This document shows positions 35,532 to 58,102 of a DNA stretch of 64,000 bases, one piece after another; within the stretch, counting starts at the first letter, position 1; each line of letters opens with the position of its first letter. The DNA lies in NCBI RefSeq assembly GCF_028882255.1, contig NZ_JARBUY010000002.1, forward strand, positions 694,342 to 758,341. The letters are read 5' to 3'. The notes under the pieces were generated by a model that saw only the letters and a list, made by a program, of their open reading frames with translations, ran no database searches and was not told where the DNA came from. The stretch is from Maribacter polysaccharolyticus. Its GTDB lineage: Bacteria; Bacteroidota; Bacteroidia; Flavobacteriales; Flavobacteriaceae. The position numbers and the translations under genes are program-made.

Positions 35532-35537
35532 TTACGA

Positions 35538-36578: not shown

Positions 36579-36588
36579 CTTTTCTTAT

Positions 36589-37809: not shown

Positions 37810-37811
37810 AA

Positions 37812-38555: not shown

Positions 38556-38561
38556 GCTCGC

Positions 38562-39782: not shown

Positions 39783-39786
39783 TTGA

Positions 39787-41109: not shown

Positions 41110-41369
41110 GTTGTATCCTGATTTTATTGAAATACGGTCCAAAGATGTAAATTAATGTAGGCCGTTACCATCGAAATAGATAAAGCAAGGGATTGACTAG
41201 ATTAAAACGAAGATTTTATCGATTGGATTTTACAGGTGATCGTAAATGGGACGGGAAATAAACGTGTATTCCCTATGTGCATTCGTCAAATTTGTACGGC
41301 TCGTAGATGTGATTTACGGTTTTATTGATTTGATTTCTTTTTTGGGGATTTTTTATGGTTTTTTGGTTC

Positions 41370-42656: not shown

Positions 42657-42731
42657 CCGACCGGTAACGGACCCCAGGGCGACGCTATCAGGGTCTACAA
42701 TTATGTAAGATTGGTAAGGGATATAAATTAA
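42657..42731 (+). pseudogene. Detached C-terminal coding segment of the DUF1566 gene
   Basis: These 24 codons plus a stop remain in frame with the preceding gene and align with the last residues of the 42738 paralog (GPQGDAIRIYNYVRLVRNVN). They are not translated unless the TAA at 42654 is read through. Confidence 0.6.
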
Positions 42732-42737
42732 GGTACT

Positions 42738-44416: not shown

Positions 44417-44479
44417 GTAGATGAAATCATCCCGTTTGTTGATTTTGCTTTTAACAGCCCCGAAACATCTGTTACTTTG
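44417..44479 (+). promoter_or_regulatory. LytTR-type operator and promoter, copy 1
   Basis: The half-site GTAGAT (44417) is followed 21 bases later by GTTGAT (44438), with GATGAAATC between. The second half-site runs into TTTTG, and a -7 element TTACTTTG is at 44472-44479. The ATG of the first Spy-like gene is 22 bases further on. Two 9-bp direct repeats 21 bp apart are the known layout of LytTR regulators such as AgrA. Confidence 0.6.
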
Positions 44480-44500: not shown

Positions 44501-44917
44501 ATGCAAAAGGCTAAAGACGTAATAGGGGTAAAGATCTTGAATGGTGTCCGGTGGCTTTTTGTTGTAACATCGGTAATGGCAGTGTTGTCCTGCGGACAAA
44601 AAAAAACGCAGGGGCAAAGAGGATTCGAACAGGTTCCGCCACCAATGCCGACAACGGAACAAATAGAAAAGAATATAAGTGATTTAGTGGCCGAAATATC
44701 GTTGAGCAATGAACAGGAAGTTGAGTTGTTGGAAATTTATTCGGAACACTATAAACAAGTTGGGGATCGTCTGAAATTCGGTCGTCCGGATAGAAGGGAA
44801 ATGGAAGCCTTGAGAAACGGATTGGAAAACCAAATAAAAGGACTGTTGACAAAAGAACAACTTGAATCATACACGGCTTACAAAAAGAAGATTGAGTCGC
44901 TTGGCTTAAAAGAATGA
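44501..44917 (+). CDS. Spy/LTxxQ-like lipoprotein, paralog 1
   Basis: The 138-residue protein has a lipoprotein signal (AVLSCGQKK), a VPPPMPTTEQI segment and a helical domain (DLVAEISLSNEQEVELLEIYSEHYKQV...RPDRREMEALRNGLENQIKGLLTKEQLESYTAYKKK) with an LTxxQ-like motif. It resembles small periplasmic helical proteins such as Spy and CpxP. It is the first of four paralogs in 2.3 kb. A promoter of the LytTR-operator type precedes it. Confidence 0.75.
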   Translation: MQKAKDVIGVKILNGVRWLFVVTSVMAVLSCGQKKTQGQRGFEQVPPPMPTTEQIEKNISDLVAEISLSNEQEVELLEIYSEHYKQVGDRLKFGRPDRREMEALRNGLENQIKGLLTKEQLESYTAYKKKIESLGLKE

Positions 44918-44968
44918 CCGATTTTAATATTAACCATTGGTCTATAAATTGGAATAAACAAGAAAATC

Positions 44969-45358
44969 ATGAAAACAACATTTAGAAAGATTACGGGCGT
45001 TGCACTTTTGTTAGGTGCATTATTATTATCAGGAACCACTTTTGCCCAACGGGGAGGACAAGGCGGGGGACAACAAGGACCACCTCCGATGCCGACCGAT
45101 GATGAGATCGTGGAAATGGTGAGTGAATTGGCCGATGGTATTTCATTGGATGAACTACAGGAAGCTGGAATATTGCAATTGTATCAGGACCATTTTGAAG
45201 AAGTGGAAAGTAAAATGAAATCAGGTAGACCAGATCGTGAGGAGATGGAGGCCTTGAAGAGCGACTTAGAGGATGGTGTGAATGCCCTTTTGAACGAGGA
45301 ACAACAGGAATTGTATAAAACATACCTGAAAAACAAACAGAAAAATGACCGAAGATAA
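44969..45358 (+). CDS. Spy/LTxxQ-like secreted protein, paralog 2
   Basis: The 129-residue protein has a cleavable signal peptide (LLLSGTTFAQ) and the sequence QRGGQGGGQQGPPPMPTDDEIVEMV, followed by the same helical domain (DHFEEVESKMKSGRPDREEMEALKSDLEDG) and LNEEQQELYKTY. It is closely related to the third paralog. It follows the first by 51 bases and probably shares its transcript. Confidence 0.8.
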   Translation: MKTTFRKITGVALLLGALLLSGTTFAQRGGQGGGQQGPPPMPTDDEIVEMVSELADGISLDELQEAGILQLYQDHFEEVESKMKSGRPDREEMEALKSDLEDGVNALLNEEQQELYKTYLKNKQKNDRR

Positions 45359-45521
45359 CTTCGGTCGGGCAAGGGAAGCTAGGATTTTTTGGAACGGGAA
45401 AAAGGATGGGGACATATAGGCGGAAAATATGGTTGACGAATCCGGGAACCATGGATAAAAGTTCGGGAAGTACTTGCCCAACAATTGAAAAGTTTAATAA
45501 GAACAAATAAAAAACAATAAA

Positions 45522-45911
45522 ATGAAAACAACAGTAAGAAAGATTACCAATGCAGCACTTTTACTATGTGCTTTGATGATTACAGGAACCACTTTTGCCC
45601 AAAGAGGTGGACAAGGCGGGGGACAACAAGGACCACCTCCTATGCCTTCCGATGATGAGATCGTGGAAATGGTAAGTGATCTGGCCGATGAGATTTCATT
45701 GGATGAGGGACAAGAAGCCGAAATTTTGGAATTGTACCAGGCACATTTTGAGGAAATGGAAAGTAAAATGGAATCCGGTAGGCCCGATCGTGACGAGATG
45801 GAGGCATTAATGAGCGATTTCGAGGAAGATGTGAATGCCGTTTTGACCGATGAACAACAGAAACTGTATAAAAAATACCTCAAAAACAATAGACCTCAAG
45901 GCAGGAACTAA
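45522..45911 (+). CDS. Spy/LTxxQ-like secreted protein, paralog 3
   Basis: The 129-residue protein is nearly the same length and sequence as paralog 2: signal peptide to TTFAQ, QGPPPMPSDDEIVEMVSDLADEISLDEGQEAEILELYQAHFEEMESKMESG, and LTDEQQKLYKKY. The 163-base gap upstream holds only weak half-site-like sequence (GTTGACGAATC at 45432). Confidence 0.8.
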   Translation: MKTTVRKITNAALLLCALMITGTTFAQRGGQGGGQQGPPPMPSDDEIVEMVSDLADEISLDEGQEAEILELYQAHFEEMESKMESGRPDRDEMEALMSDFEEDVNAVLTDEQQKLYKKYLKNNRPQGRN

Positions 45912-45960
45912 AGGTGCCTTGAAACAATGTTAAGGAATCAATACCCGAATAGTGGCAATT

Positions 45961-46185
45961 ATGGAACATGGAAGATGGAATGAAAGGATTGGGCTATCGG
46001 GTATTTCAATGATATTTCTGCTCTTACTTCATTTGCCTATGGGCTGTAGTGAGGATGAAAAGGAAAATTCCGATAAGCTACAAATAGCTATAGGTCGGGA
46101 TGGAATATCCGATCAAGCGGCTGTCGTTTTTGAAGCAGCCAAAGATAGGAGGAGTCCAGTTAATGATGATACGGGGAATGAATAA
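45961..46185 (+). CDS. Small lipoprotein, 74 aa
   Basis: The product MEHGRWNERIGLSGISMIF... has a hydrophobic stretch and a lipobox-like LPMGC, followed by an acidic, polar tail (SEDEKENSDKLQIAIG). The ATG at 45961 is preferred to the GTG at 45952. It follows paralog 3 by 49 bases and ends before a terminator. No homology is recognised. Confidence 0.45.
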   Translation: MEHGRWNERIGLSGISMIFLLLLHLPMGCSEDEKENSDKLQIAIGRDGISDQAAVVFEAAKDRRSPVNDDTGNE

Positions 46186-46232
46186 AAATATAAGCATGGC
46201 AATACCTATAAATTGATTGCGTATGGTAGAAA

Positions 46233-46277
46233 AATAGTTGTTTGGTTGAGTTAGTTTAGTTAAAGGCACGTTGGTTT
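46233..46277 (+). repeat. 45-bp duplicated segment, copy A
   Basis: This is 42/45 identical to 46971-47015; the first 32 bases are the same. It runs into the left arm of a terminator in both places. It marks duplication of a gene-plus-terminator unit. Confidence 0.7.
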
Positions 46278-46302
46278 CGAAAGAACCAGCGTGTTTTTTT
46301 TT
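46264..46302 (+). terminator. Rho-independent terminator after the small lipoprotein gene
   Basis: CACGTTGGTT (46267-46276) pairs with AACCAGCGTG (46284-46293) with one G-U pair and runs into a nine-base T-run. Confidence 0.75.
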
Positions 46303-46339
46303 GTTCTAAAAACCCTGCATCCATGAAGTATCCATATTC

Positions 46340-46402
46340 GTAGATAAAATCTTCCAATTCGTTGATTTTGCTTTTTTTCGATGGCAAACTTCAGTTACTT
46401 AG
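46340..46402 (+). promoter_or_regulatory. LytTR-type operator and promoter, copy 2
   Basis: GTAGAT at 46340 and GTTGAT at 46361 are 21 bp apart with GATAAAATC between; TTTTG follows and TTACTTAG is at 46395-46402, the same offset (34 bases from the second half-site) as in copy 1. The ATG of Spy-like paralog 4 is 25 bases beyond. Confidence 0.6.
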
Positions 46403-46426
46403 AGTCAATATTAAAAAGCAATAGGT

Positions 46427-46810
46427 ATGAAATCCTTTATGGGAAAAATGGGAAGATCAATGCTGGTCTTACTGGTGGTCACCTCGGTAGCATGCCGGCA
46501 ACAAAAGGGGCAAGAAGGTAGACAACAAGGACCTCCGCCAATGCCAAACGATGCTGAAATAGTTGAAATGGTAGGGGAGTTGTCCAAGAGCATCTCACTC
46601 GACGAAAGTCAGGAAACTCGAGTATTGGAGCTGTACCAGGAGCATTTTAAGGAAATGGAAAGTAAAATGGAATCCGGTAGGCCCGATCGGGATGAAATGG
46701 AAGCTCTAAAGAGCAAGTTCGAGAATGCCGTGAATGCGGTTTTGACCGAGGAACAACAAGGTTTGTTCAAGGATTACCAAAAGAACATTCGAAGAAAAGA
46801 ACGAAGATAG
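46427..46810 (+). CDS. Spy/LTxxQ-like lipoprotein, paralog 4
   Basis: The 127-residue protein has a lipobox ending at Cys23 (VTSVACRQ), QQGPPPMPNDAEIVEMVGELSKSISLDESQETRVLELYQEHFKEMESKMESG, then RPDRDEMEALKSKFENAVNAVLTEEQQGLFKDY. It keeps all features of paralogs 2 and 3 but is a lipoprotein like paralog 1. It has its own promoter of the LytTR type. Confidence 0.8.
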   Translation: MKSFMGKMGRSMLVLLVVTSVACRQQKGQEGRQQGPPPMPNDAEIVEMVGELSKSISLDESQETRVLELYQEHFKEMESKMESGRPDRDEMEALKSKFENAVNAVLTEEQQGLFKDYQKNIRRKERR

Positions 46811-46970
46811 CCTTTTCGGATTTTGAGGAAGGCAATATTAAAAGGGCCGGTATTTATATGCCGATGTCATTGACATAAGCTTAAAGACGTTCAGACAATC
46901 GAAAGTACGGAACGTTAGAAGAATTTAATAAGATTGATAATTAATTTTAATTGTGTGCCTATGGTTGAAT

Positions 46971-47015
46971 AATAGTTGTTTGGTTGAGTTAGTTTAGTTA
47001 AAAGCACGCCGGTTT
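46971..47015 (+). repeat. 45-bp duplicated segment, copy B
   Basis: See copy A at 46233-46277. Three substitutions at the terminator stem differ from it. Confidence 0.7.
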
Positions 47016-47039
47016 TATTAGAACTGGCGTGCTTTTTTT
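47000..47039 (+). terminator. Rho-independent terminator after Spy-like paralog 4
   Basis: AAAGCACGCCGGTT (47001-47014) pairs with AACTGGCGTGCTTT (47022-47035) with one G-U pair; the T-run follows to 47039. Confidence 0.8.
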
Positions 47040-47077
47040 GTATCCGAAATCGAAGGATGTTGTCGATTCCTGAATTG

Positions 47078-47140
47078 GTTGATGAAATCCCCCAGTTTGT
47101 TGATTATAATTTAACCTTAACATAACCTTTCGTTAATTGG
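47078..47140 (+). promoter_or_regulatory. LytTR-type operator and promoter, copy 3
   Basis: GTTGAT at 47078 and GTTGAT at 47099 are 21 bp apart with GATGAAATC between. A -7-like TTAATTGG is at 47133-47140, again 34 bases from the second half-site. The VTC gene starts 19 bases beyond. Confidence 0.6.
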
Positions 47141-47158
47141 TCTATTATTTAAAAGACC

Positions 47159-47896
47159 ATGAATCAGATAATCAACGCTTTTGACAGTATTTCCCTCGAA
47201 GAGATGAATAACGTTGCTTTGATGAAAAGGACCGATACAAAATTCATTGTGCATAAAAAAGAATTGATTTCGGTTTTAAAGAAAATCATTCAAGATTACA
47301 AAGTCCTCGAGATAAAGGGTAATAGGATCATGACCTATGCCTCGCTTTACTTTGATACCCCTGCCAAGAAATTCTATTATGACCATCATAACGGAAAGGT
47401 GAATAGGACTAAGGTCAGGATGCGTAAATATGTGGAATCGGATATTTGTTTTCTAGAGGTAAAACAAAAAGACGGTAGGGGGAAAACAAAAAAGACCAGG
47501 ACCTCGATAAATGATTTTGAAATGGATTTATCCGATACGTCTATTGATTTTATCCAGAATGTAACCCATGAATCCTATGATCTGGAACCCATTATCTGGA
47601 ATAAATTCAATCGGATCACCCTTGTGAATAAAACGGCCAAGGAGCGTTTGACCATAGACTTGAACGTTTCCTTCAAAATAAACAACACCTTCAAGACCTA
47701 TGATAATTTGGTGATTATCGAAGTGAAACAGGAACGGTTCAATAGAACCTCTCCGGTAGTCAGACAGTTGAAAGAGCATCAGACAAACCCTTACGGCCTT
47801 AGTAAGTACTGTATCGGAATGATCAGTGTTTACGAGGATTTAAAGTACAATCGATTTAAGAGAAAAATATTAAAAATAAATAAGATAACAGCTTAA
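47159..47896 (+). CDS. VTC-domain protein (polyphosphate polymerase fold)
   Basis: The 245-residue soluble protein has the VTC/CYTH-like tunnel signature: KRTDTKFIV, SLYFDT, HHNGKVNRTKVRMRKY, FLEVKQK, LTIDLNVSF and IIEVKQE near residues 22, 61, 75, 100, 160 and 182. The basic tunnel residues (Lys, Arg) and acidic metal ligands in alternating strands are kept. In yeast the Vtc4 domain makes polyphosphate from ATP. In bacteria such proteins are found next to DUF4956 and CotH genes, with unproven activity. It starts a five-gene run with DUF4956, DUF2490-like, Cthe_2159-like and CotH genes. Confidence 0.85.
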   Translation: MNQIINAFDSISLEEMNNVALMKRTDTKFIVHKKELISVLKKIIQDYKVLEIKGNRIMTYASLYFDTPAKKFYYDHHNGKVNRTKVRMRKYVESDICFLEVKQKDGRGKTKKTRTSINDFEMDLSDTSIDFIQNVTHESYDLEPIIWNKFNRITLVNKTAKERLTIDLNVSFKINNTFKTYDNLVIIEVKQERFNRTSPVVRQLKEHQTNPYGLSKYCIGMISVYEDLKYNRFKRKILKINKITA

Positions 47897-47902
47897 CGAC
47901 CT

Positions 47903-48505
47903 ATGGAATTTTTAGATATCCCCCTTTTTGACGATGATTTTTTTAAAATGATGTTCAGGTTTGTCCTAAACTTCACCTTCTTGACCGTGATCATTCGTTT
48001 TGTGTATTATCCTTTTTCCAAACGAAAGGATTATGTTTTTACCTATTACCTGATAAGTCTTATCGTATTTTTTCTCTGTTTCACCTTGAAAAAATATAAT
48101 CTCGATATAGGAATGGCCCTTGGGTTGTTCGCCATCTTCGGAATTATACGTTATAGGACCGATCCCATCGATATTAAGGAAATGACCTATTTGTTCGTGG
48201 TTATCGGGGTATCGGTGATCAATTCTTTGGCGAACAAGAAAATGAGCTATTCCGAGATCATAGCCGCCAACGTACTCATCATAGTCGTTTTAGTCGCCAT
48301 AGAGCGATATTGGGCCTTAAAACAGGAAGAATCCAAATCGATCATCTACGAAAATATCGAGAATATCAAACCTGAGAATTATGGGGTGCTCAAAAGCGAT
48401 CTTGAACAGCGGACAGGGCTGTCGATCAACAAAATCAATATCGGTAAGATAGATTTTTTAAAGGACACTGCGGAAGTGACCATATTCTATTTTAAGAACA
48501 GCTAA
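47903..48505 (+). CDS. DUF4956 membrane protein
   Basis: A 200-residue protein with about four membrane helices (first 125 residues) and a cytoplasmic C-terminal alpha/beta domain (SIIYENIENIKPENYGVLKSDLEQRTGLSINKINIGKIDFLKDTAEVTIFYF). This is the DUF4956 layout. The family occurs beside VTC-domain genes. It starts 6 bases after the VTC stop. Confidence 0.85.
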   Translation: MEFLDIPLFDDDFFKMMFRFVLNFTFLTVIIRFVYYPFSKRKDYVFTYYLISLIVFFLCFTLKKYNLDIGMALGLFAIFGIIRYRTDPIDIKEMTYLFVVIGVSVINSLANKKMSYSEIIAANVLIIVVLVAIERYWALKQEESKSIIYENIENIKPENYGVLKSDLEQRTGLSINKINIGKIDFLKDTAEVTIFYFKNS

Positions 48506-48523
48506 CGAACAAAAATATACCCT

Positions 48524-49240
48524 ATGGAATTGATACATAGTAAAAACCTCCAATATGTTGCCTTGATAGTTGCTCTAATGATAGGGGTTTCCGGTTTTTC
48601 CCAAACGGAGGATACCGATGATCTTCAAAGTTGGACGGCAATAAGTCTCAAATATAAATTGAATAAAAAATGGTCTTTCGAATTGGAGGAGCAATTGCGA
48701 TTGGATGCGAATATTTCGGAAGTGAGCGAATATTTCACCGAGATCGATGCGGAATACTCCATTTCAAAAAGCTTTGATATCGGAGGTGGATTGCGGTATG
48801 TACGGGAGAATGATAATGAAGGCAATGTTCAAGGGTATGAAAACCACCTGAGGTTTCATATAGATGCCTCATACAAACATAAGATAAATGCATTTTCACT
48901 TAAATACAGATTGCGCTATCAGAACAAGAATGAATTGGGTGTGGATGCTTCCGAAGGTGATTATGCGAAACAGAATATTCGTTTCAAAACTTCTGTTGGA
49001 TACGATTTTAAGAACTGGAAGTTGGATCCTGAATTCTCCGCTGAAATATTCAATCACTTTGAAGAAGGTGAGGACAATGGCTTCAGTAAATACAGATTGA
49101 CCTTAGGCACTGATTATAAAATAAAAAAGTATGGCAAAATCGGCCTTTTTTATAGAATGGAAAAGGAATTGAATGTCGATTTGCCCGAAACGGCCCATAT
49201 TATCGGGTTAAAATACGCTTATACTATTAAAAACAAGTAA
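48524..49240 (+). CDS. DUF2490-like outer-membrane barrel protein
   Basis: The 238-residue protein has a signal peptide (ends GFSQ) and a regular pattern of amphipathic beta-strands (WTAISLKYKLNKKWSFELEEQLRLD; RFHIDASYKHKINAFSLKYRLRYQNK; GKIGLFYRMEKELNV), matching DUF2490. A porin-like or barrel role is likely. It lies between DUF4956 and the beta-helix gene and may form the outer-membrane exit for them. Confidence 0.75.
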   Translation: MELIHSKNLQYVALIVALMIGVSGFSQTEDTDDLQSWTAISLKYKLNKKWSFELEEQLRLDANISEVSEYFTEIDAEYSISKSFDIGGGLRYVRENDNEGNVQGYENHLRFHIDASYKHKINAFSLKYRLRYQNKNELGVDASEGDYAKQNIRFKTSVGYDFKNWKLDPEFSAEIFNHFEEGEDNGFSKYRLTLGTDYKIKKYGKIGLFYRMEKELNVDLPETAHIIGLKYAYTIKNK

Positions 49241-49241
49241 A

Positions 49242-50975
49242 ATGAAAGTAAGAAATCTAAACATACCATCCCTTTTAGGCATGTTGTTGTTCGCAACACT
49301 CACCTTTCAAGGTTGTTCCGATGATGAAGACACTGTTTATGATACCGATTCCACTTATTCGGAGAGTACGGAGGATACTGCTACCGATGACGACATTACG
49401 ATTGCGGAAGTAGGGGAGACCCATGAAGAAGATAGCGACTATGTGTGGGACGCTTCCAGCGTGGTTTATATTACCTTGAACGGTTCTTCGATTACCGTTG
49501 ATGGTGATGGGGCGACGGTTGATGGTAGCGAGGTGACGATAGGCTCGGCCGGTAATTATGAAATTACAGGGACCTTATCCGATGGTCAGATTACCGTGGA
49601 TACCGACGATGAAGAAACCGTACGTCTTATTTTGAACAGCGTTGATATAACCAACACTTCAGGTTCCCCTATAAACATTGCCAGTTCGGAAAAAACAATC
49701 GTTATACTCTCCGAGAATACGATCAACGAATTGACCGATACGAACAACTATGTTTATGATGAGGATGAAGATGAGCCCAATGCCACACTTTTCAGTGACG
49801 ATGACCTCACCATATACGGGGAGGGTGCCCTCATCGTCAATGCAAATTACAATGATGGTATTGCCAGTAAGGACGGTTTGGTGATCGCGAGTGGTAACCT
49901 AACGGTGAATGCCGTGGATGACGGTATTCGTGGTAAGGATTATTTATATGTAAAAGATGGGTACATCGTGGTAAATGCAGAAGGTGATGGGTTGATATCG
50001 GACAATGATGAAGATACGAACACCGGATGGGTACTTATCGATGGGGGTGCCTTCGTGATCACGGCCGATGGGGATGGTATTTTTGCCGAATCGGTGGTGG
50101 AGATTACCTACGGTGATTTCACTATAGTGACCGGTGGGGGCCATACAAGCTCATTAGGTACCGATGATTCGGCCAAAGGAATTAAGTCCGGCGGGAATAT
50201 CCTTATCGAAGACGGTATTTTCGATATCGATTCTGCAGATGATAATTTACATGCAAGTTATGATATTACCATTACTACGGGAACCTTTACCTTGGCTACC
50301 GGGGATGATTCCATCCATGCGGATGACGCGGTGGAAATCGATGGGGGGACATTTGATATCACCGATGCCGTAGAGGGTATTGAAGCACCCGATATTATCA
50401 TCAGTGATGGGGAAATATATATCAATAGCAGTGATGATGCCATTAATGCAGCAGGCAATACAAACAATTTCCTTTATATAAATGGGGGGTATATCGTTAT
50501 TACCAGTAGTGGTGATGGCTTGGACGCCAACGGCGATATAGAAATGACAGGCGGTACGGTAATTGTCAACGGCCCAACTTCCCAAAGTAATAGTCCGATA
50601 GATTACGATGGTACCTTTTATCTGAATGGGGGCTTCCTGGTCGCCTCTGGCTATGGATCTAATATGGATGAGGCAGGAAGTAATGTATCGGACCAAAATT
50701 CCTTACTCGTGAAATTATCGTCGACACAATCGGCCGGAAAGCTATTTCATATCGAGAATGGTTCCGGAGAGGAAATTTTAACCTTTGCCCCGGAAAAAGC
50801 CTATAAGTCGATCGTGTTCTCTTCATCCGAATTAAGTACCGGAAGCTATACGATTTATTTGGGAGGAAGCTCAACAGGGACGGTAACCGATGGGGTCTAT
50901 GAAGGTGGAACCTATACCCCGGGAACCCAATATGATACTTTTAGCGTATCGGGTACGGTGACAACAGTCGATTAA
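49242..50975 (+). CDS. Cthe_2159-like (DUF4353) beta-helix carbohydrate-binding lipoprotein
   Basis: The 577-residue lipoprotein (Cys25, LTFQGCSDDED) is acidic and has a long run of Asp/Gly-rich beta units (for example GNYEITGTLSDGQITVDTDDE; GDGIFAESVVEITYGDFTIVTGGG). This matches the Cthe_2159 family, whose founding member binds acidic pectin-type sugars with a right-handed parallel beta-helix and calcium. The binding target here is unknown. It is 2 bases after the preceding stop and directly upstream of the CotH gene. Confidence 0.85.
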   Translation: MKVRNLNIPSLLGMLLFATLTFQGCSDDEDTVYDTDSTYSESTEDTATDDDITIAEVGETHEEDSDYVWDASSVVYITLNGSSITVDGDGATVDGSEVTIGSAGNYEITGTLSDGQITVDTDDEETVRLILNSVDITNTSGSPINIASSEKTIVILSENTINELTDTNNYVYDEDEDEPNATLFSDDDLTIYGEGALIVNANYNDGIASKDGLVIASGNLTVNAVDDGIRGKDYLYVKDGYIVVNAEGDGLISDNDEDTNTGWVLIDGGAFVITADGDGIFAESVVEITYGDFTIVTGGGHTSSLGTDDSAKGIKSGGNILIEDGIFDIDSADDNLHASYDITITTGTFTLATGDDSIHADDAVEIDGGTFDITDAVEGIEAPDIIISDGEIYINSSDDAINAAGNTNNFLYINGGYIVITSSGDGLDANGDIEMTGGTVIVNGPTSQSNSPIDYDGTFYLNGGFLVASGYGSNMDEAGSNVSDQNSLLVKLSSTQSAGKLFHIENGSGEEILTFAPEKAYKSIVFSSSELSTGSYTIYLGGSSTGTVTDGVYEGGTYTPGTQYDTFSVSGTVTTVD

Positions 50976-51001
50976 AATATTAACCGATAAATACTCAATC
51001 C

Positions 51002-52444
51002 ATGAAAAAATCAGTTTTTAGAATGCCAACCCTGGTCGGTGTCACGCTAATGGGATCCTTACTGTTCTTGAATTGTTCGGATAATGATTCCGCTACCTAT
51101 GGCGATAGTACGGGCTCTTCGGATTCCGATACCACCGTAGTTATCGATGATACGGATTTTGATCCGGTCGATTGGACGACCGAGACGCATAGCAACGATG
51201 TGGATCCTAATTTCGATGAGGTTTTTGATGATACGGAAGTAAAGCGATTCGATTTTGTTATTTCAGAAGAGAACTGGGCAGCTATGTTGGCCGATATGAC
51301 CGACATGTATGGGACCTTTGGCCGTTCAAGTGGTGGACTATCCGATTTTTCCGATGAGGATCCCATATTCGTGCCGGGATCGGTTTTCTATAACGGTATC
51401 GAATGGTATAAAGTGGGCTTGCGGTTCAAAGGAAATTCCAGTCTCCAAAGTGCTTGGCAATCCGGGGTCCTTAAATTGGCCTTTAAAATGGATTTTGATG
51501 AGTATGAGGATGATTATCCCCAGATAAAAAACCAACGCTTTTACGGGTTTAAAAAGTTTAGCTTAAAGAATAACTATAATGACAGCTCTTTTTTAAGGGA
51601 AAAAGTAGCCGCCGAAGTGTTTGAAAATTCCGGATTGGCGGTTTCCCATACCGGTTTTTATACGCTTTATGTAGATCATGGGGACGGCCCCGAGTATTTC
51701 GGATTGTACACTTTGGTCGAGGAAGTCGATAATACGGTTATAGATACCCAATTCACCAGTGATGACGGTAACCTATATAAACCCGAGGATTATGGGGCAA
51801 GTTTTGAGGAAGGTACATTTAATGAGGATGGATTTGTAAAAAAGACCAATGAGGATGAGGCCGATTGGAGTGATGTCGAAAGCGTGTTTACCGCCTTGCA
51901 TTCCGCTACAAGAACCACGGATCCCGAAGCATGGCGTACAGGTTTGGAAGCCGTTTTCGATGTGGATACTTTTTTGAATTATTTGGCTGTAAATACGGTC
52001 ATCCAAAACTGGGATACCTATGGTAGAATGGAACATAATTATTATCTGTACAATAATCCGGACAATAGTTTACTGACCTGGATTCCTTGGGATAACAACG
52101 AAGCCCTTCAAGAGGGGAATATGGGGGGTTCCTTGAGTTTGGATTTTTCAGATCTTTCCAGTAGTTCCGACTGGCCATTGATTGGGTATTTGTATGAAGA
52201 TGAGGTGTATAAGGCCAAGTATGATGCTTATGTCGAGGCGGTTATAGGAGGCCCTTTTGAAACCACTTATATCCAAGGGGTTTACGATACTTATTCCAGT
52301 TTGGTGGAACCTTATGCGACTTCGGAAGAAAGCGGATACACCTTTTTAAACAGTAGTAGTTCGTTTTATTCCGCTATTTCAACACTTAAATCCCATGCCT
52401 CAAGTCGGGCATCGGCAGTAAGCAGCTATCTGTCGAAACAATAG
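51002..52444 (+). CDS. CotH-kinase family lipoprotein
   Basis: The 480-residue lipoprotein (Cys25, FLNCSDND) has the CotH kinase fold. The motif sequence RFKGNSSLQSAW is followed by KKFSLKNNYNDSSFLREKVAAEVF (catalytic Lys region), YFGLYTLVEEVD, and the NTVIQNWDTYGRMEHNYYLYNN...TWIPWDNNEAL stretch in which the two metal or base Asp residues lie. CotH enzymes are secreted protein kinases in spore coats; here it is probably periplasmic or surface-exposed. It closes the VTC run. Confidence 0.85.
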   Translation: MKKSVFRMPTLVGVTLMGSLLFLNCSDNDSATYGDSTGSSDSDTTVVIDDTDFDPVDWTTETHSNDVDPNFDEVFDDTEVKRFDFVISEENWAAMLADMTDMYGTFGRSSGGLSDFSDEDPIFVPGSVFYNGIEWYKVGLRFKGNSSLQSAWQSGVLKLAFKMDFDEYEDDYPQIKNQRFYGFKKFSLKNNYNDSSFLREKVAAEVFENSGLAVSHTGFYTLYVDHGDGPEYFGLYTLVEEVDNTVIDTQFTSDDGNLYKPEDYGASFEEGTFNEDGFVKKTNEDEADWSDVESVFTALHSATRTTDPEAWRTGLEAVFDVDTFLNYLAVNTVIQNWDTYGRMEHNYYLYNNPDNSLLTWIPWDNNEALQEGNMGGSLSLDFSDLSSSSDWPLIGYLYEDEVYKAKYDAYVEAVIGGPFETTYIQGVYDTYSSLVEPYATSEESGYTFLNSSSSFYSAISTLKSHASSRASAVSSYLSKQ

Positions 52445-52489
52445 TTCAAATGGCAAGAAAACTGTAATTTTGAAGGTTTTAAAATAATG

Positions 52490-52522
52490 GGCAGCTTTAA
52501 ACTTTTTGGGTTTAAAGCTGTC
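52490..52522 (+). promoter_or_regulatory. 13-bp stem hairpin between CotH and PepSY genes
   Basis: CAGCTTTAAAC (52492-52502) pairs with GTTTAAAGCTG (52510-52520), extended by GG/TC pairs, around a 7-base loop. No T-run follows, so it is either a weak terminator or an mRNA structure separating the VTC-CotH run from the redox genes. Confidence 0.5.
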
Positions 52523-52547
52523 TAAGGTATAGGTTAAAAATAAAGAT

Positions 52548-53066
52548 ATGAAACGTACGAAATCAATAAGCTTTTATATGCGGATTTTTCATCGCTATTT
52601 AGGTTTTTTCTTGGCAGGGATTATGGCGGTTTACGCCTTTAGTGGCATTATTCTCATATTTCGGGAAACCGATTTTTTGAAAAGTGAGAAAAGGGTTGAG
52701 AAGAAAATAGCGGTCGGGCTGACTTCCGAAACATTGGGTAGGGCTTTGCATATGAAAAAATTACAAGTTGCCAAGGAAGAAGGTAATGTGCTGTATTTCA
52801 ATGACGGAACCTATAACAGCGTGACGGGAGATGTAAAATACACCTCAAATGATCTGCCGGCGGTAATCATGAAACTCAATCAATTACATAAGGCAAGCAC
52901 CAACCAGCCCTTGTTTTGGTTGAACATCTTTTTTGGAGTATCATTGTTCTTCTTCGTCGTTTCTTCATTCTTAATGTTCAAACCGAAAAACAAAACCTTA
53001 AAAGAAGGGGTTTATGTCTCCGTGGTTGGGGTCGCATTAACGATTTTATTGGTGTTTTTGTCATAA
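52548..53066 (+). CDS. PepSY-associated membrane protein
   Basis: The 172-residue protein has an N-terminal membrane helix (FHRYLGFFLAGIMAVYAFSGIILIF), a periplasmic PepSY-like middle (residues about 60-115) and a further membrane segment, as in PepSY-associated TM proteins that take part in iron reduction or siderophore handling. It stands just before the ferredoxin and ferric-reductase-like genes. His15 and His114 may be heme or metal ligands, which is inference. Confidence 0.8.
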   Translation: MKRTKSISFYMRIFHRYLGFFLAGIMAVYAFSGIILIFRETDFLKSEKRVEKKIAVGLTSETLGRALHMKKLQVAKEEGNVLYFNDGTYNSVTGDVKYTSNDLPAVIMKLNQLHKASTNQPLFWLNIFFGVSLFFFVVSSFLMFKPKNKTLKEGVYVSVVGVALTILLVFLS

Positions 53067-53463
53067 ATAAAAGGAGGTAGGATTTATAGGTATAAAACCG
53101 AAATAGCCCTTAATTCAGTTGCAGGCTGTTTTGTTTTTTTACTGTGCCATTCAGTGATCGATCGGTTCTTGGATCGAAGATCGCTTTATGGTTTTTTTTT
53201 GTTTTTGAAATGTGATCCGGAACGTATGTTGATTTACTAAGGCGAAGGGTCTTAGTGTCTTTCCTTGCCCTTGTTCAAAGGTGGTTTTTCTTAAATGTCA
53301 TTCCCGTGGTATCCCTTGGTATTCCCTTCATTTCCAATTCCCCATTTTTTTTGTAGTTGTGATATGCCATTTGGTTGATAAAGTCTTTTTGCCCGTCGAT
53401 TCCAGTTTCAAATAATAGGGATGTGCTGTTACTTTGATAAGGAAATAGTAATAGATCTTGATT
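53067..53463. other. Intergenic stretch, 397 bases
   Basis: It holds a LytTR-type promoter (53374-53436) and no recognisable gene. Confidence 0.5.
53374..53436 (+). promoter_or_regulatory. LytTR-type operator and promoter, copy 4
   Basis: GTTGAT at 53374 and GTCGAT at 53395 are 21 bp apart with GATAAAGTC between. A perfect TTACTTTG is at 53429-53436, 34 bases from the second half-site. The ferredoxin ATG is 28 bases further on. It is about 6.3 kb from copy 3 yet keeps the same spacing. Confidence 0.6.
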
Positions 53464-53679
53464 ATGGCAATAGAAAGTATTAACGGATGCATAGGTTGTG
53501 AGGAGTGCATTAAAAGCTGCCCGACCGATGTTATTCGACTGGATCAAAAAACAAAGAAGGCGATAATTACCTTTCCGGAGGACTGTCAAATATGTCATTT
53601 GTGCCGGTTGTATTGTCCGGTCGATGCCATAACGATCACGCCGGAGAAATCAATTCCTGTAATCGTATCATGGGGCTAG
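53464..53679 (+). CDS. 2[4Fe-4S] ferredoxin-like protein
   Basis: A 71-residue protein with two full CxxCxxCxxxC(P) motifs at Cys9/12/15/19 and Cys41/44/47/51, which bind two [4Fe-4S] clusters. The layout resembles the AprB-type small iron-sulfur subunit that partners an AprA-like flavoprotein; such a flavoprotein gene is two genes downstream. No signal peptide, so it is cytosolic. The ATG at 53464 is preferred to an upstream TTG. Confidence 0.9.
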   Translation: MAIESINGCIGCEECIKSCPTDVIRLDQKTKKAIITFPEDCQICHLCRLYCPVDAITITPEKSIPVIVSWG

Positions 53680-53681
53680 TT

Positions 53682-54326
53682 ATGAAAAAAGAAAGAAAAA
53701 TTTATCAGTATTTGCCGCTCGTTTTGGCGTTTATCGTGTTGCCATTGCTACTATGGTTTTTAAGCGATTTTCCCGAAAGGTCCTTGCAAATGAATGCCCT
53801 TTCCCTATTGACCATTTTGGCCTTTAGTTTATTGTTGGCACAATTCTTTTTGTCAAGGACGAATAGGGACATGGTTAAAAAAGTGAAAATGTCCAATGTT
53901 CTTAAAATACACAAGTTCATCGGTTATGTATTTATCGGCATTATCATGTTGCATCCTTTCTTTATACTGGTACCTAAATTTTTGGATGATGCCGTATCCC
54001 CAAAAGATGCCTTTATAAGAGTTATCACCAGCTTCGATAATATCGGACTTGTTTTGGGCCTAGTGGCCTATTCGGCAATGTTGGTGATCATGATAACCTC
54101 GTTTTTCCGTTTTAAACTGCATATGAAATACAGGACCTGGAGAACCTTCCATGCCTATTTGACCACGATTTTCATCGTTGCTGCCATCTGGCATGCCATT
54201 ACCTTGGGGCGCCATAGCAATGGCGCATTCACTTTGTTCTATGTGATTACCGGGGCAAGTGGAATCTTTTTTCTAATACGGATGTATGTGTTGAAACCTT
54301 CTAAAAAACCGATTAAAAATGTCTAG
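53682..54326 (+). CDS. Ferric-reductase-like transmembrane protein, bis-heme
   Basis: The 214-residue membrane protein has about six helices. His77 and His91, and His157 and His171, lie 14 residues apart on two helices: the bis-heme ligand layout of the FRD/NADPH-oxidase transmembrane family. It lacks the FAD/NAD domains, so electrons must come from elsewhere. The start at 53682 follows the ferredoxin stop by 2 bases. It probably moves electrons across the inner membrane to the exported flavoprotein encoded next. Confidence 0.88.
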   Translation: MKKERKIYQYLPLVLAFIVLPLLLWFLSDFPERSLQMNALSLLTILAFSLLLAQFFLSRTNRDMVKKVKMSNVLKIHKFIGYVFIGIIMLHPFFILVPKFLDDAVSPKDAFIRVITSFDNIGLVLGLVAYSAMLVIMITSFFRFKLHMKYRTWRTFHAYLTTIFIVAAIWHAITLGRHSNGAFTLFYVITGASGIFFLIRMYVLKPSKKPIKNV

Positions 54327-56118
54327 TTCTAAAGAAAATGGTAAGATTTCCCGACGAAGTTTTATAGCCCTTGCTGGCGGAGCGGCGGGTGCAATGGCAT
54401 TGGCCTCAATGGGTATGCCTATGGGTTGGGCCGAGAATAACCCCGAGATCGATGTTGATGCCTTGGGTCTTGATAAGTTCAATACCGACGTACTGGTCAT
54501 AGGAAGTGGAATGGCAGGTTTGTTCGCGGCCGTAAAAGCCCACGATGCCGGGGCTAAGGTAATGATGGTTTCCAAAGGTCGACTTGGTTCTTCGGGCCAG
54601 ACACCTTTTGCGAAAGGGATATTCGCTTTTGATCCGGAAAAGGAAGAATTGAGTATTGATGAATTCGTTGCCAAAATTTCCCGTTCGGCCATGGGAAGTA
54701 ATAATGAGGCATATACCCGGCAAATGGCAGAACATTCATTGGATCGGGTAAACGAACTCAAGTCGTGGGGCTTCTTCGATTCGGCAATCTATAACAAGAG
54801 TTTCAGTAAGCCCATAAATGAGCGTAACATACCCGTTCATGAACGTATAGTGGTGACCCATCTGATCAAGGAGGATGAAAAAATAGTGGGTGCGGCAGGC
54901 TTTAGTGTAGATGAACAAAAGGTATTGATTTACGAAGCCAAGAGCGTTATCCTTTGTACTGGGGCCGGCGGATTTAAACCCAATGGTTTCCCTATTGGGG
55001 ACCTTACCCATGATGGTACGATAATGGCCTATGATATAGGGGCTAAGGTTACAGGTAAGGAGTGGAACGATGGCCACCCCGGTAGGGCTGAAAATCCCGC
55101 CGCATGTTATGATGGGTGGGGCGATATGTTTGAAAACAAACCCAGTACCGTCAGTGTTGAAGTACACCATGACCTTGGGGTCGACCTAAACTATATGGTC
55201 TATGCCAGTGGTAACTCGGTAACCATGGGACGTCCTGGAGAAGGGGATATGAATGCCGTTTCGGGCGGACCTTTTACCCCTGAAGAATTTAAAAGGCAGG
55301 AAACCGGAAGGAGACCCGGGCCCCAATCGGATGAAGGTAGGCCGCCCAGAGGGGAAGGTAAACCACCAGGTGGAGGGAAACCCCCAAAAGATGGAGGAGG
55401 TGGGCCTCCGGGTATGAGTGGCACTCCAGTAGGGGGGTCATCGGCAGGAATGGCCATACACAAATCAGAGGGATTGGTGCCGATCAATGAACGATGCGAA
55501 TCGAATATCCCTGGTCTTTATGCGGCCGGTGATGCATTGGGCTCCTATATGTCGGGAGGTATTTATACCCAAATCGGTTCGTCCTTGGCCGGATCCGCAG
55601 TCCAAGGTGGCGTTGCTGGGGAAGCTGCGGCCAAATACAGTAAAACGGTCGGATCGGTTTCCATCTCGGATGCTAAGATCAAAGATGTTGAAGAAGAGAT
55701 CTTGGCACCATTGAAAAGGGAAGCCGGGTATAGTCCGGCATGGGTAACCCAGACCCTACAGGGGATCATGATCCCCAATTTTATCCTTTATGTAAAAAAG
55801 GAAAATTTAATGAAAGGGGCCTTGGCCTATATTGAGGAATTGAGAGATCAGCACATGGGTCATTTGAGGGCGGCCAATTTGCATGATTTGCGATTGGCCC
55901 ATGAGACCCGCAATATGATCGTAAGTGCCGAAATGAAATTGAGGGCGTCCTTGATGCGTAAAGAGAGCAGATGTAGTCATTACCGTTTGGATTATCCGGA
56001 AATGGATGATGAAAACTGGAGGGCTTGGATCAATATTTATAAAGGGGAAGATGGTACCATGCAGCTTGAAAAACAGCCGTTCGGCCAATGGCCGAACCAA
56101 GGTGCCGAAATTGTTTAA
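54319..56118 (+). CDS. Tat-exported FAD-binding oxidoreductase (fumarate-reductase/AprA-like)
   Basis: The 599-residue flavoprotein has a Tat signal (ISRRSFIALAGGAAGAMA), an N-terminal FAD-binding GxGxxG (VIGSGMAGLFAA, residues 60-71), an ENPAACYDG-type capping region and the second FAD motif GLYAAGDALGSYMSGG (399-414). The C-terminus (RKESRCSHYRLDYPEMDDENW) is of the fumarate-reductase family. A 37-residue Pro/Gly-rich stretch (331-367, for example RPPRGEGKPPGGGKPP) interrupts the domain. Its gene overlaps the preceding one by 8 bases. With the ferredoxin and bis-heme protein, it may reduce an extracytoplasmic acceptor that is not known. Confidence 0.87.
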   Translation: MSSSKENGKISRRSFIALAGGAAGAMALASMGMPMGWAENNPEIDVDALGLDKFNTDVLVIGSGMAGLFAAVKAHDAGAKVMMVSKGRLGSSGQTPFAKGIFAFDPEKEELSIDEFVAKISRSAMGSNNEAYTRQMAEHSLDRVNELKSWGFFDSAIYNKSFSKPINERNIPVHERIVVTHLIKEDEKIVGAAGFSVDEQKVLIYEAKSVILCTGAGGFKPNGFPIGDLTHDGTIMAYDIGAKVTGKEWNDGHPGRAENPAACYDGWGDMFENKPSTVSVEVHHDLGVDLNYMVYASGNSVTMGRPGEGDMNAVSGGPFTPEEFKRQETGRRPGPQSDEGRPPRGEGKPPGGGKPPKDGGGGPPGMSGTPVGGSSAGMAIHKSEGLVPINERCESNIPGLYAAGDALGSYMSGGIYTQIGSSLAGSAVQGGVAGEAAAKYSKTVGSVSISDAKIKDVEEEILAPLKREAGYSPAWVTQTLQGIMIPNFILYVKKENLMKGALAYIEELRDQHMGHLRAANLHDLRLAHETRNMIVSAEMKLRASLMRKESRCSHYRLDYPEMDDENWRAWINIYKGEDGTMQLEKQPFGQWPNQGAEIV

Positions 56119-56267
56119 AGGCTGGGAGGTCGGTACCTTTTGATAGGGGTTCCGACGATAACCCCAAAACACAAATAGCAGTAATAGAAGTAAGCTAGGA
56201 AATAATTCTGATTTCAATTTATATAGCCTATAGGAAATCATTATATTCGAATAACAGTACATCATAC

Positions 56268-57389
56268 ATGAGCGATAGTCATCAAAACAAGGCATTAATA
56301 AAAAGAATCAGCCTTCTCGAACCTTTTGTTATTTTTATCTTTTGGTTCGTTTTGTTCGCCTCACCCTTATTGTTCGGTCAATTTGGGGAGAATATAGACT
56401 GGACCCATGTCTTTGAGGTTTGGAAAAGCCATATACCGCTACTTGCGATGTTCTTGGTGCATCGGTTTTTACTGATGCCTTTATTGTTCTTTAAGGGCAA
56501 AAAGATCTTCTATTTTGGTTTTGTCGTAATTTTGCTAATCGCGGGTACGGCTATCATCTATGCGATTGAGAGGCCAAATCCCCAAGGATTGCCTCCTCCA
56601 CCGGTAAGAAGTGAAAGGCCGATGGGAGATTTGCCGGATCGGGGTTTTGAGGGTAATATGCCGCCTCGGGAACATAACGTAGGAAATACGAAGGGGCCAA
56701 TACCTTCCTATGCCAATTTTTTGATGTTGTCGATACTTCTCATGGGTTTTGATGCAGGATTGCAGATATCCATGCGGTGGGCCAACTTGGAACAGGAAAA
56801 ATTCAGACTGCAAAAGGAAAATGTGGAAAATCAATTGGCTTTTTTAAGAAATCAGATCAGTCCCCACTTCTTTATGAATACGCTCAATAACATCCATGCT
56901 TTGGTGGATATCGACGCGGATGAGGCAAAGGATTCGATCATCAAACTTTCCAATTTAATGCGACATCTACTCTATGATTCCGAGGAAAAGCAAACGACAA
57001 TAAGTAAAGAGGTCGGTTTTATCAAGAGTTATATTGAACTCATGCGCTTGCGGTTTACCGATAAAGTGGTGATCGATGTGGATATCCCCACAGTGATCCC
57101 CGATAAATCAATTCCGCCATTATTGTTTACGTCATTGTTGGAAAATGCTTTTAAGCACGGTATAAGTTATGATAAGGAATCGTTCATTCATGTAGAAATA
57201 TCCTTTACAGAGAACCGATTGACGTTCGGAATTGAAAATAGCAATCATTCCAAAAAAGCGGATGGTCATTCGGGAATTGGAATAGAGAATATTAGAAAAC
57301 GTTTGGATCTACTGTATGATAAGGCATATAGCCTCGATATCGTGGATGATGGCGGTAGATTTATGGTAACCTTAAAAATCCCTTTATGA
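56268..57389 (+). CDS. LytS-type histidine kinase with Pro-rich loop
   Basis: The 373-residue kinase has four membrane helices in residues 15-165. Between the third and fourth there is a 45-residue extracytoplasmic loop rich in Pro, Arg and Gly (101-146, PQGLPPPPVRSERPMGDLPD). The kinase core has His200 (ISPHFFMNTLNNIHAL), the N-box (LLENAFKHG) and the G-box (GIGIENIRKRL). The other two LytS-type kinases in the window lack this loop. Its stop overlaps the regulator start (ATGA). Confidence 0.92.
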   Translation: MSDSHQNKALIKRISLLEPFVIFIFWFVLFASPLLFGQFGENIDWTHVFEVWKSHIPLLAMFLVHRFLLMPLLFFKGKKIFYFGFVVILLIAGTAIIYAIERPNPQGLPPPPVRSERPMGDLPDRGFEGNMPPREHNVGNTKGPIPSYANFLMLSILLMGFDAGLQISMRWANLEQEKFRLQKENVENQLAFLRNQISPHFFMNTLNNIHALVDIDADEAKDSIIKLSNLMRHLLYDSEEKQTTISKEVGFIKSYIELMRLRFTDKVVIDVDIPTVIPDKSIPPLLFTSLLENAFKHGISYDKESFIHVEISFTENRLTFGIENSNHSKKADGHSGIGIENIRKRLDLLYDKAYSLDIVDDGGRFMVTLKIPL

Positions 57390-58102
57390 TTCGTTGTATC
57401 GCCATAGATGATGAGCCCTTGGCCTTAAAGCAAATTGCCAATTATATAGAAAAAACCCCTTTTCTTTCTTTGGAAAACCAGTTTGAGAGCGCCATACAGG
57501 CGATTTCATTCCTTGAGGAAAATGAGGTCGACTTGATGTTCGTTGATATCAATATGCCCGATTTGAACGGGTTGGATTTTGTGAAGTCGTTGAGCAATGC
57601 ACCTAAGGTGATCTTTACCACGGCCTATAGCGAGTATGCTATTGAGGGCTTTCGGGTCGATGCCATCGATTACCTGTTGAAACCTATTGGGTATAGCGAA
57701 TTCTTAAAGGCGGCCGTTAAGGCCAAGGAAAGGTTGCAGCCTAAAATCGAGGAGAATACGGAGGTTCATGGCAACGATAAGTTTTTGTTCATTAAATCGG
57801 AATACAAAATATTGCGGATAAATCTGTCCGATATTCGATTTATTGAAGGCATGCGCGAATATTTACGTATCCATTTGCAATCGGAAAAACCGATCATGAC
57901 CTTAATGAGTATGAAGAAGATGGAGCAATTTCTTTCCCCAGACCATTTTATGAGGGTACATCGCTCCTATATCGTTAATCTGGACAAGATCTCCACCGTG
58001 GAGCGAAATCGGATCGTTTTTGATAAAAACATCTATATTCCCATAAGTGAGCAGTATAAGCTGAAGTTCCAAAAATACTTGGACGACAATTTTTTGGTTT
58101 AA
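57386..58102 (+). CDS. LytTR response regulator
   Basis: The 238-residue regulator has Asp8-Asp9, phospho-acceptor Asp54 and a LytTR domain (FIKSEYKILRINLSDIRFIEGMREYLRIH...VHRSYIVNLDKI). It overlaps the kinase by 4 bases. It is the best candidate for binding the four GTNGAT/21-bp operators at 44417, 46340, 47078 and 53374, which is inference. Confidence 0.93.
   Translation: MIRCIAIDDEPLALKQIANYIEKTPFLSLENQFESAIQAISFLEENEVDLMFVDINMPDLNGLDFVKSLSNAPKVIFTTAYSEYAIEGFRVDAIDYLLKPIGYSEFLKAAVKAKERLQPKIEENTEVHGNDKFLFIKSEYKILRINLSDIRFIEGMREYLRIHLQSEKPIMTLMSMKKMEQFLSPDHFMRVHRSYIVNLDKISTVERNRIVFDKNIYIPISEQYKLKFQKYLDDNFLV

Follow-up and report, generated by a model that had tools for sequence, protein, structure and literature searches.

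The stretch of DNA analysed here, 64,000 nucleotides of the 4.76-Mb genome of Maribacter polysaccharolyticus (contig NZ_JARBUY010000002.1, positions 694,342 to 758,341; hereafter the window, whose own coordinates are used throughout), carries on its forward strand a block of genes for membrane and exported proteins at 44501-58102, which an original prediction from the sequence had taken for one undescribed envelope system. All genes named in the block were found as complete open reading frames (ORFs) and most of them have Pfam support, but the four Spy-like proteins and the PepSY_TM-like protein lie below the cut-offs. The putative core of the block is a redox triad, which consists of a 2x[4Fe-4S] ferredoxin of 71 amino acids (53464-53679; Fer4_21 and other matches, no signal peptide seen), a ferric-reductase-type bis-heme membrane protein (FRD; 53682-54326; Ferric_reduct PF01794, 51 bits) and, as probable catalytic subunit, a flavoprotein with a twin-arginine translocation (Tat) signal, an AprA/FrdA fold and a Pro/Gly-rich insert (54319-56118; FAD_binding_2 and Succ_DH_flav_C). 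The ferredoxin is smaller than the size limit of the mechanical ORF list and was located separately; since it occupies 53464-53679, the FRD must start at 53682 and the listed ORF start at 53592 is too early. A LytS-type histidine kinase with a Pro-rich extracytoplasmic loop (56268-57389; His_kinase) and a LytTR response regulator (57386-58102; Response_reg and LytTR), the presumed operator binder, close the block.

Do these genes form a common regulon? We found an operator, GTWGATRAARTCNNYYNRYYYGTYGATT, at four promoters, composed of two GTNGATN half-sites 21 bp apart. LytTR direct-repeat sites show the same tandem layout with a period of about 21 bp. The four operators lie 5' of the gene for Spy-like lipoprotein 1 (44417-44444), of that for Spy-like lipoprotein 4 (46340-46367), of the VTC gene (47078-47105) and of the ferredoxin gene (53374-53401), all on the forward strand. 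With up to three mismatches allowed, exactly these four sites exist genome-wide and the reversed pattern has none; a promoter-like GTTA(C/A)TT element begins 27 nt past the operator in 4/4 promoters, which bears out the predicted shared promoters and single regulon. Within the window, four sites were observed against 0.01 expected by chance. As the pattern was derived from those same four sites, the independent evidence is that the genome has no further site and that the operator recurs in other genera. A looser pattern, applied to 12 genomes of the genus, gave eight sites: one in G007, three in G010 and four in the present genome. Each of them falls in the region of the cluster. The other nine genomes, including the flavoprotein-bearing G005 and G009 and seven genomes without the flavoprotein, had none; the reversed control gave one match, in G011.

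For the comparison across genera, a species-genome scan with six flavoprotein orthologues yielded 144 relatives, of which the best 80 loci (61-85% identical, many of them in metagenome bins) were kept with flanks of up to 10 kb, 22 of them shortened by contig ends. Genes were called with a longest-ORF script, by which small genes are missed or mis-started. The hosts belong to Bacteroidota, Thermodesulfobacteriota (14 loci), Pseudomonadota, Campylobacterota (5 loci), Spirochaetota, Calditrichota, Planctomycetota and other phyla; we refer to 25 Bacteroidota loci and one Calditrichota locus (L086) as Bacteroidota-type. A weight matrix built on seven operator sites (four here, three from L052/L053) and used at a chosen threshold of 16 bits found 39 matches, among which are three training sites. 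They fall in 17 of the 26 Bacteroidota-type loci (531 kb), and shuffled sequences gave none. All 39 are on the same strand as the flavoprotein gene. Most lie about 30-85 bp 5' of VTC, CotH, Spy, Lcl or ferredoxin genes, and where the ferredoxin was not called, 180-270 bp 5' of the FRD; a few fall inside genes or farther from called starts, and one (L055) at a contig end. An operator-type site precedes VTC in L052, L053, L059, L060, L061, L072 and L078, and Lcl genes in L060, L064 and L078. The hosts of operator-bearing loci include Maribacter, Lutibacter, Aureibaculum, Labilibaculum and Ancylomarina, among others. Sites were present in 13/13 Bacteroidota-type loci with a response regulator that shares at least 60% identity with that of the window, and the matrix had no match in 16 other DUF4956 loci or in the 54 flavoprotein loci not of Bacteroidota type. 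Twelve further loci gave a single match, 5' of an EF-hand gene in L140, a locus with a response regulator of 79% identity. Taken together, the sequences strongly suggest that the block consists of several modules in one regulon rather than one fixed operon.

The redox triad is the most constant of these modules. In a profile search on stop-to-stop frames, the flavoprotein gene adjoined a ferredoxin gene in 76/80 loci, an FRD gene in 75/80 and both in 74/80, and of the six loci that miss a partner (L070, L079, L100, L108, L110, L111), two (L079 and L111) start at the end of a contig or close to it. The order is ferredoxin-FRD-flavoprotein in 69 loci and FRD-ferredoxin-flavoprotein in five (L105, L118, L128, L130, L131; in Vibrio, Alginatibacterium, Microbulbifer and Aliiglaciecola). 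Hence, the triad is nearly obligate, and we regard it as the core of the system. In the FRD, H77, H91, H157 and H171 form two His pairs, 14 residues apart, and are invariant in 61/61 rows; the eight Cys of the ferredoxin are invariant in 38/38 rows. The FRDs of the five FRD-first loci are long (457-505 amino acids), and that of L105, the only one of these loci scanned by Pfam, carries FAD_binding_8 and NAD_binding_1 domains, which argues for a cytosolic electron supply.

The flavoprotein profile scored best with adenylylsulfate (APS) reductase, followed by Sdh1 and phosphoadenylylsulfate (PAPS) reductase, and its predicted model (mean predicted local distance difference test, pLDDT, 73; predicted template modelling score, pTM, 0.79) matched the same set. 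The Arg in the HGxNRLGxNS motif of Sdh/Frd binds the dicarboxylate; in the alignment with Sdh1, the position of this Arg is taken by T417/Q418, both invariant in 49 rows, which makes a dicarboxylate an unlikely substrate. A Tat motif, RRx[FLMVI], lies within the first 120 amino acids of 74/80 called flavoprotein ORFs, and R12 and R13 are at least 90% conserved (49 rows). Of the six ORFs without the motif, most have a start that is truncated or was called wrongly, and L084 reads SGRQF at this place. By eye, all 80 flavoproteins have an insert rich in Gly and Pro, which is disordered in the predicted model. We consider the triad a reductase that works in the periplasm on electrons passed through the membrane, with moderate confidence in the reductase direction. 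Among the literature matches listed, which were searched by titles and beginnings of abstracts and covered few subscription papers, we found no description of such a triad.

Proline is a recurrent signature of the cluster. With a chosen criterion of six P in 20 amino acids, 14/19 LytTR-type kinases and 17/26 flavoproteins of the 26 Bacteroidota-type loci are Pro-rich, compared to 2/246 other ORFs; for Spy-like and Lcl proteins the counts are 2/17 and 2/21, and PPP occurs in 9/17 Spy-like proteins versus 3/246 other ORFs. No Pro-rich stretch was found in the CotH, VTC, DUF4956, DUF2490, FRD, ferredoxin or EF-hand family c26 proteins of these loci. In the 54 other loci, where the background is 46/681, the criterion selected 44/54 flavoproteins, 4/4 proteins of EF-hand family c28, 7/22 OmpR-type kinases and 1/8 GPPPEA proteins (PPP in 4/8). 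The Pro-rich segments therefore occur in otherwise unrelated parts: the flavoprotein insert, the sensor loops, and the Spy and GPPPEA proteins. OmpR-type kinases cluster near the triad (23 kinases in 18 loci); eight were judged BaeS-like by eye, and the seven scanned, picked for their BaeS-like start, all matched a BaeS model best among the NCBIfam models (336-467 bits, under the cut-offs). The sensor domains of these seven contain a Pro-bearing stretch, which is shorter in E. coli BaeS. Some of the proteobacterial and desulfobacterial triads have BaeS-like kinases as neighbours, or else GPPPEA proteins or efflux pumps.

The upstream part of the block carries the remaining genes. The second operator precedes a gene for a Spy-like lipoprotein (46427-46810), and the first one three further Spy-like genes, for a lipoprotein (44501-44917) and for two secreted proteins, one with the motif GQQGPPPMP (44969-45358) and one at 45522-45911. 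Behind the third operator follow a VTC-domain polyphosphate polymerase-like protein (47159-47896; Pfam VTC, 112 bits), a DUF4956 membrane protein (47903-48505; 183 bits), a DUF2490 protein (48524-49240; 96 bits), which we take to be an outer-membrane barrel, a Cthe_2159 beta-helix lipoprotein (49242-50975; 324 bits), a CotH kinase-family lipoprotein (51002-52444; PF08757, 235 bits) and the PepSY_TM-like membrane protein (52548-53066), with 25.7 bits against a Pfam cut-off of 28.8. VTC, DUF4956 and CotH have a single match apiece in the genome. Of 14 control genomes, three matched VTC and the same ones DUF4956; CotH was matched by two of them plus Bacillus subtilis.

In the fetched flanks of the 80 loci, the satellites of the triad include CotH (22-23 loci), Lcl/DUF1566 (20), Spy-like (16), VTC (13), DUF4956 (12), DUF2490 (11), Cthe_2159 (7) and PepSY (3). 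PepSY, a neighbour in 3/80 loci only, was rejected as a core member. Between PepSY and ferredoxin, L053 (8300-8962) and L054 (8228-8935) hold an unassigned protein with a signal-like N-terminus and a membrane-helix-like C-terminus; Pfam gives no match for the copy in L053, and no such protein was seen in the corresponding gap of the window (53067-53463). A small secreted family with the pattern GPPPEA...C...C was found as 23 ORFs in 22/80 loci (e.g. L094:8352-8624); its two Cys are invariant in 21 aligned rows, its predicted model is weak (pTM 0.48), it has no Pfam match above cut-off, and outside Bacteroidota it apparently corresponds to the Spy-like genes. A Spy-like, EF-hand or GPPPEA secreted protein is present in 42/80 loci, and HlyD with a MacB, RND or ABC pump in 9/80. 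Pumps resembling that beside the cluster in the window stand near the triad in L058, L063, L086, L094 and L150. Sulfatase-family genes are found near the flavoprotein in 8/80 loci, including L107, L113 and L121, and directly 3' of it in L107 and L121.

CotH accompanies the redox core as well as VTC. Both D338 and D364 are invariant in 18 rows, and D338 aligns with the QNFD Asp of the solved CotH 5jd9. An acid-rich stretch follows the lipobox Cys, which we take as a sign of a surface lipoprotein, and the protein looks like one. In B. subtilis CotH, the catalytic Asp is D228, and D228Q is inactive, according to the part of the report available (PMC7821199). By the mapped numbering, D338 would be its equivalent, so that the protein presumably keeps the catalytic Asp. 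VTC shows 43 invariant positions in 18 rows, 19 of which are K, R or E, and a sequence search of the PDB found no relative at E<=1. Eighteen DUF4956 loci were fetched; the 14 with strong profile scores, two of which (L023 and L025) are Maribacter flavoprotein loci, contain VTC in 13, DUF2490 in 12 and CotH in 11 cases, the CotH profile having been trained partly on L021 and L028, and the VTC-less L033 is a 3.2-kb contig. We speculate that VTC, DUF4956 and DUF2490 form a series from the cytosol via the inner to the outer membrane. The Gram-positive sets in the available passages of a previous study name no DUF2490 (PMC7112168), which fits an outer-membrane role for this protein. The DUF4956 and DUF2490 pair BT3498-99 of B. 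thetaiotaomicron is listed, in the portion of the paper available, in an iron stimulon table (-7.6; second value 0.175; PMC10434189).

Close CotH homologues are also found without the flavoprotein, beside YHYH, SCO1, EF-hand and LytTR-type genes in L140 and L142 (in L140 also Lcl), efflux genes in L141, an EF-hand gene in L143 and VTC-DUF4956-DUF2490 in L146-L148; in L144 and L145, no recognised part lies beside CotH except a distant kinase match. Upstream of the block, two secreted DUF1566/Lcl_C proteins of 433 and 439 amino acids (41355-44057, forward strand; Pfam Lcl_C 132 and 140 bits) have no operator in front, and the conservation of the neighbourhood assigns them to the cluster. A second Lcl gene pair lies elsewhere in the genome (L153, contig C19, 8422-10974, reverse strand), with no other cluster part matched within 20 kb around. 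Adjoining the Lcl genes of the window, a second LytTR pair with a MacB-ABC-HlyD-TolC efflux operon (34800-41142, reverse strand, no operator in front) may be a further module.

Within the genus, the modules are separable. G005 and G009 keep CotH, redox and LytTR genes without a DUF4956 match, and G008 keeps VTC-DUF4956-DUF2490 without the flavoprotein, which led us to reject a single fixed 13.6-kb operon. Among 395 genomes of the phylum, the flavoprotein occurs in four and a close CotH in 12; both occur together in three, compared to 0.12 expected, always on one contig and a few kb apart. The flavoprotein tree requires 11 changes to account for the presence of CotH and 8 for that of VTC. Gene order varies between lineages in the 80 loci, and the parts recur in reshuffled form across many distant bacteria. 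The original prediction thus has to be modified in two respects: its boundaries at 44501 and 58102 are too narrow to include the Lcl genes, and its one single system resolves into modules. In the co-conservation survey that it proposed, joint occurrence proved recurrent, so that the refutation it had allowed for (an order unique to this genome, or parts never found together) did not occur, although gene order was not fixed.

Based on these findings, we propose a LytTR-controlled envelope-stress regulon that combines Spy chaperones, the periplasmic reductase triad and a surface CotH/VTC phosphate module, a reading to which we give an even chance. Envelope damage or a toxic compound would be sensed by the kinase through its Pro-rich loop, and the response regulator would turn on the Spy-like periplasmic chaperones, the triad and the CotH/VTC cassette. 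Tat would export the flavoprotein together with the ferredoxin, a hitch-hiker, and through the two FRD hemes electrons could reach the flavoprotein from the cytosolic side. In the periplasm it would then reduce some target that is oxidised or toxic, much as MsrQ feeds MsrP, the repairer of Spy in E. coli, while the surface CotH kinase and the VTC-DUF4956-DUF2490 cassette would modify or build a surface layer. We favour the stress reading because of the Spy-like, EF-hand or GPPPEA proteins in 42 of the loci, the HlyD and pump genes in nine, and the BaeS-like kinases. Two elements of the original prediction, an envelope location and a sensor kinase with a Pro-rich loop, found support here. More speculative, and in our view improbable, is a polyphosphate-fed kinase: VTC polyphosphate, threaded by DUF4956 in the inner and DUF2490 in the outer membrane, would fuel CotH phosphorylation of Cthe_2159, Spy or Lcl proteins where ATP is absent, and in parallel the ferredoxin-FRD-flavoprotein, as a new reductase class, would act on a shared target recognised via the Pro-rich segments. 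Pro-rich proteins bind polyphenols, which makes polyphenols or quinones candidates for this shared target.

Several observations weigh against the envelope-stress regulon. The Spy assignment consists of sub-threshold Pfam matches (LTXXQ or Metal_resist, best E 0.0006 to 0.05 for the four proteins), and the FRD has no NCBIfam match at E<=0.01 and hence no match to an MsrQ model; we rejected its identification as MsrQ on this ground despite PF01794. The triad is rare in close relatives, and its flavoprotein is patchy, as it occurs in 3/349 genomes of the family and 5/12 of the genus. CotH, Lcl, Spy, GPPPEA (c18) and EF-hand genes are all missing from 31/80 triad loci, counted with the 22 shortened ones, and 49 have some, so that these satellites look optional. 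We infer the binding of the LytTR protein to the operators from co-occurrence, and sites are also present in 4/13 Bacteroidota-type loci in which no close response regulator was seen (L055, L060, L073, L091), where the regulator may lie beyond the fetched flank. Finally, sign tests on independent pairs of the tree (response regulator with operator; VTC with CotH) were not significant, because there are too few such pairs.

Could the triad instead serve respiration? Its substrate would then be a small external molecule, on which it would act as terminal reductase or as dehydrogenase in the manner of the extracytoplasmic fumarate/urocanate-type flavoprotein reductases, with the surface proteins handling the same compound. 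The AprA/FrdA fold of the flavoprotein, the NAD/FAD-binding domains of the long FRD in L105, a second, FNR-type FRD gene in L121 and a TRAP-type binding protein-like gene 5' of the triad in L105 (both by eye), the sulfatase genes and the thermodesulfobacterial and campylobacterial hosts all fit this idea; the replacement of the substrate Arg does not, nor do the satellites that recur most often (Spy-like or GPPPEA proteins, CotH, Lcl, two-component genes), and we consider it rather unlikely. A surface polymer or adhesion system, in which VTC-DUF4956-CotH-Cthe_2159 and the lectin-like Lcl proteins would build or modify a biofilm matrix with the redox genes as secondary, is in our estimate unlikely. 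The same polymerase-DUF4956-CotH set accompanies Pel clusters in the passages available (PMC7112168), Cthe_2159 is named as a carbohydrate-binding family, and the Lcl proteins match adhesin models weakly, below threshold. However, the redox triad carries the same operator, and no VTC was found near the triad in 67/80 loci, although a divergent VTC (as in L150 and L151) can escape that search.

The weak Metal_resist similarity of the Spy-like proteins points to metal homeostasis, in particular of copper, where FRD and flavoprotein would reduce a metal and the Spy-like and His/Met proteins bind it, and the triad-less close CotH homologues beside SCO1/SenC, YHYH and EF-hand genes (L140, L142) could be read in the same way. 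In the triad loci, two SCO1 queries had no BLAST match and YHYH was found in 3/80, in a search that had metal ATPases and metal sensors outside its scope. On these two counts copper was rejected as the main theme, and metal homeostasis at large seems a distinctly poor prospect. Are the modules then chance neighbours on one island? Their separability within the genus and the different part order elsewhere would agree with this, but the operator is exclusive to these promoters genome-wide, the same genes with the same operator type recur in different orders in other genera, and the joint occurrence of flavoprotein and close CotH in the phylum exceeds expectation. We regard a chance neighbourhood as highly improbable.

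If the envelope-stress regulon is true, it would add a reductase for envelope protection, found in many phyla and served by a membrane electron line of its own, and a Bacteroidota envelope-stress regulon whose readable operator makes further targets findable by sequence. It would also place CotH and VTC-DUF4956, whose joint role is to our knowledge unsolved in the literature covered, under a defined switch, so that their function becomes directly testable, as does the question of the source of phosphate for an extracellular kinase.

How does this regulon compare to known systems? In MsrPQ, MsrP is Tat-exported and MsrQ is a ferric-reductase-type heme b membrane protein, and we suggest that MsrPQ is the nearest working analogue of the triad. 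In E. coli, MsrPQ reduces methionine sulfoxide in Spy and BaeSR induces Spy, as stated in the available part of a recent report (PMC12503329); the likeness to our cluster thus comprises the membrane protein, the Tat-exported reductase, the Spy partner and two-component control. The differences are a catalytic subunit of the AprA/FrdA-type flavoprotein class with a ferredoxin instead of the molybdopterin sulfite-oxidase-type MsrP, an FRD outside the NCBIfam models at the given cut-off, and the addition of CotH, VTC and Lcl. With AprAB, SdhAB, FrdAB and PAPS reductase, the triad shares the fold, the FAD_binding_2 and Succ_DH_flav_C domains and a ferredoxin partner; Tat export, the FRD anchor and the Pro-rich insert set it apart from these enzymes, and the catalytic Arg of Sdh/Frd is absent. 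The predicted co-occurrence of VTC, DUF4956 and CotH is already in print for Gram-positive Pel clusters, whose accessory set, as far as the available passages go, comprises CotH, a polyphosphate polymerase and DUF4956, accompanied by DUF4832 or a cyclase/phosphodiesterase (PMC7112168). The three stand together here as well, but no Pel genes were seen, a DUF2490 barrel and Cthe_2159 are added, and LytTR control is common with the redox triad. Lastly, the BaeSR regulon likewise unites a Spy-type chaperone, an efflux pump and a sensor kinase, and BaeS-like kinases lie near the triad in the seven scanned loci, while in Bacteroidota a LytTR pair takes the place of BaeSR.

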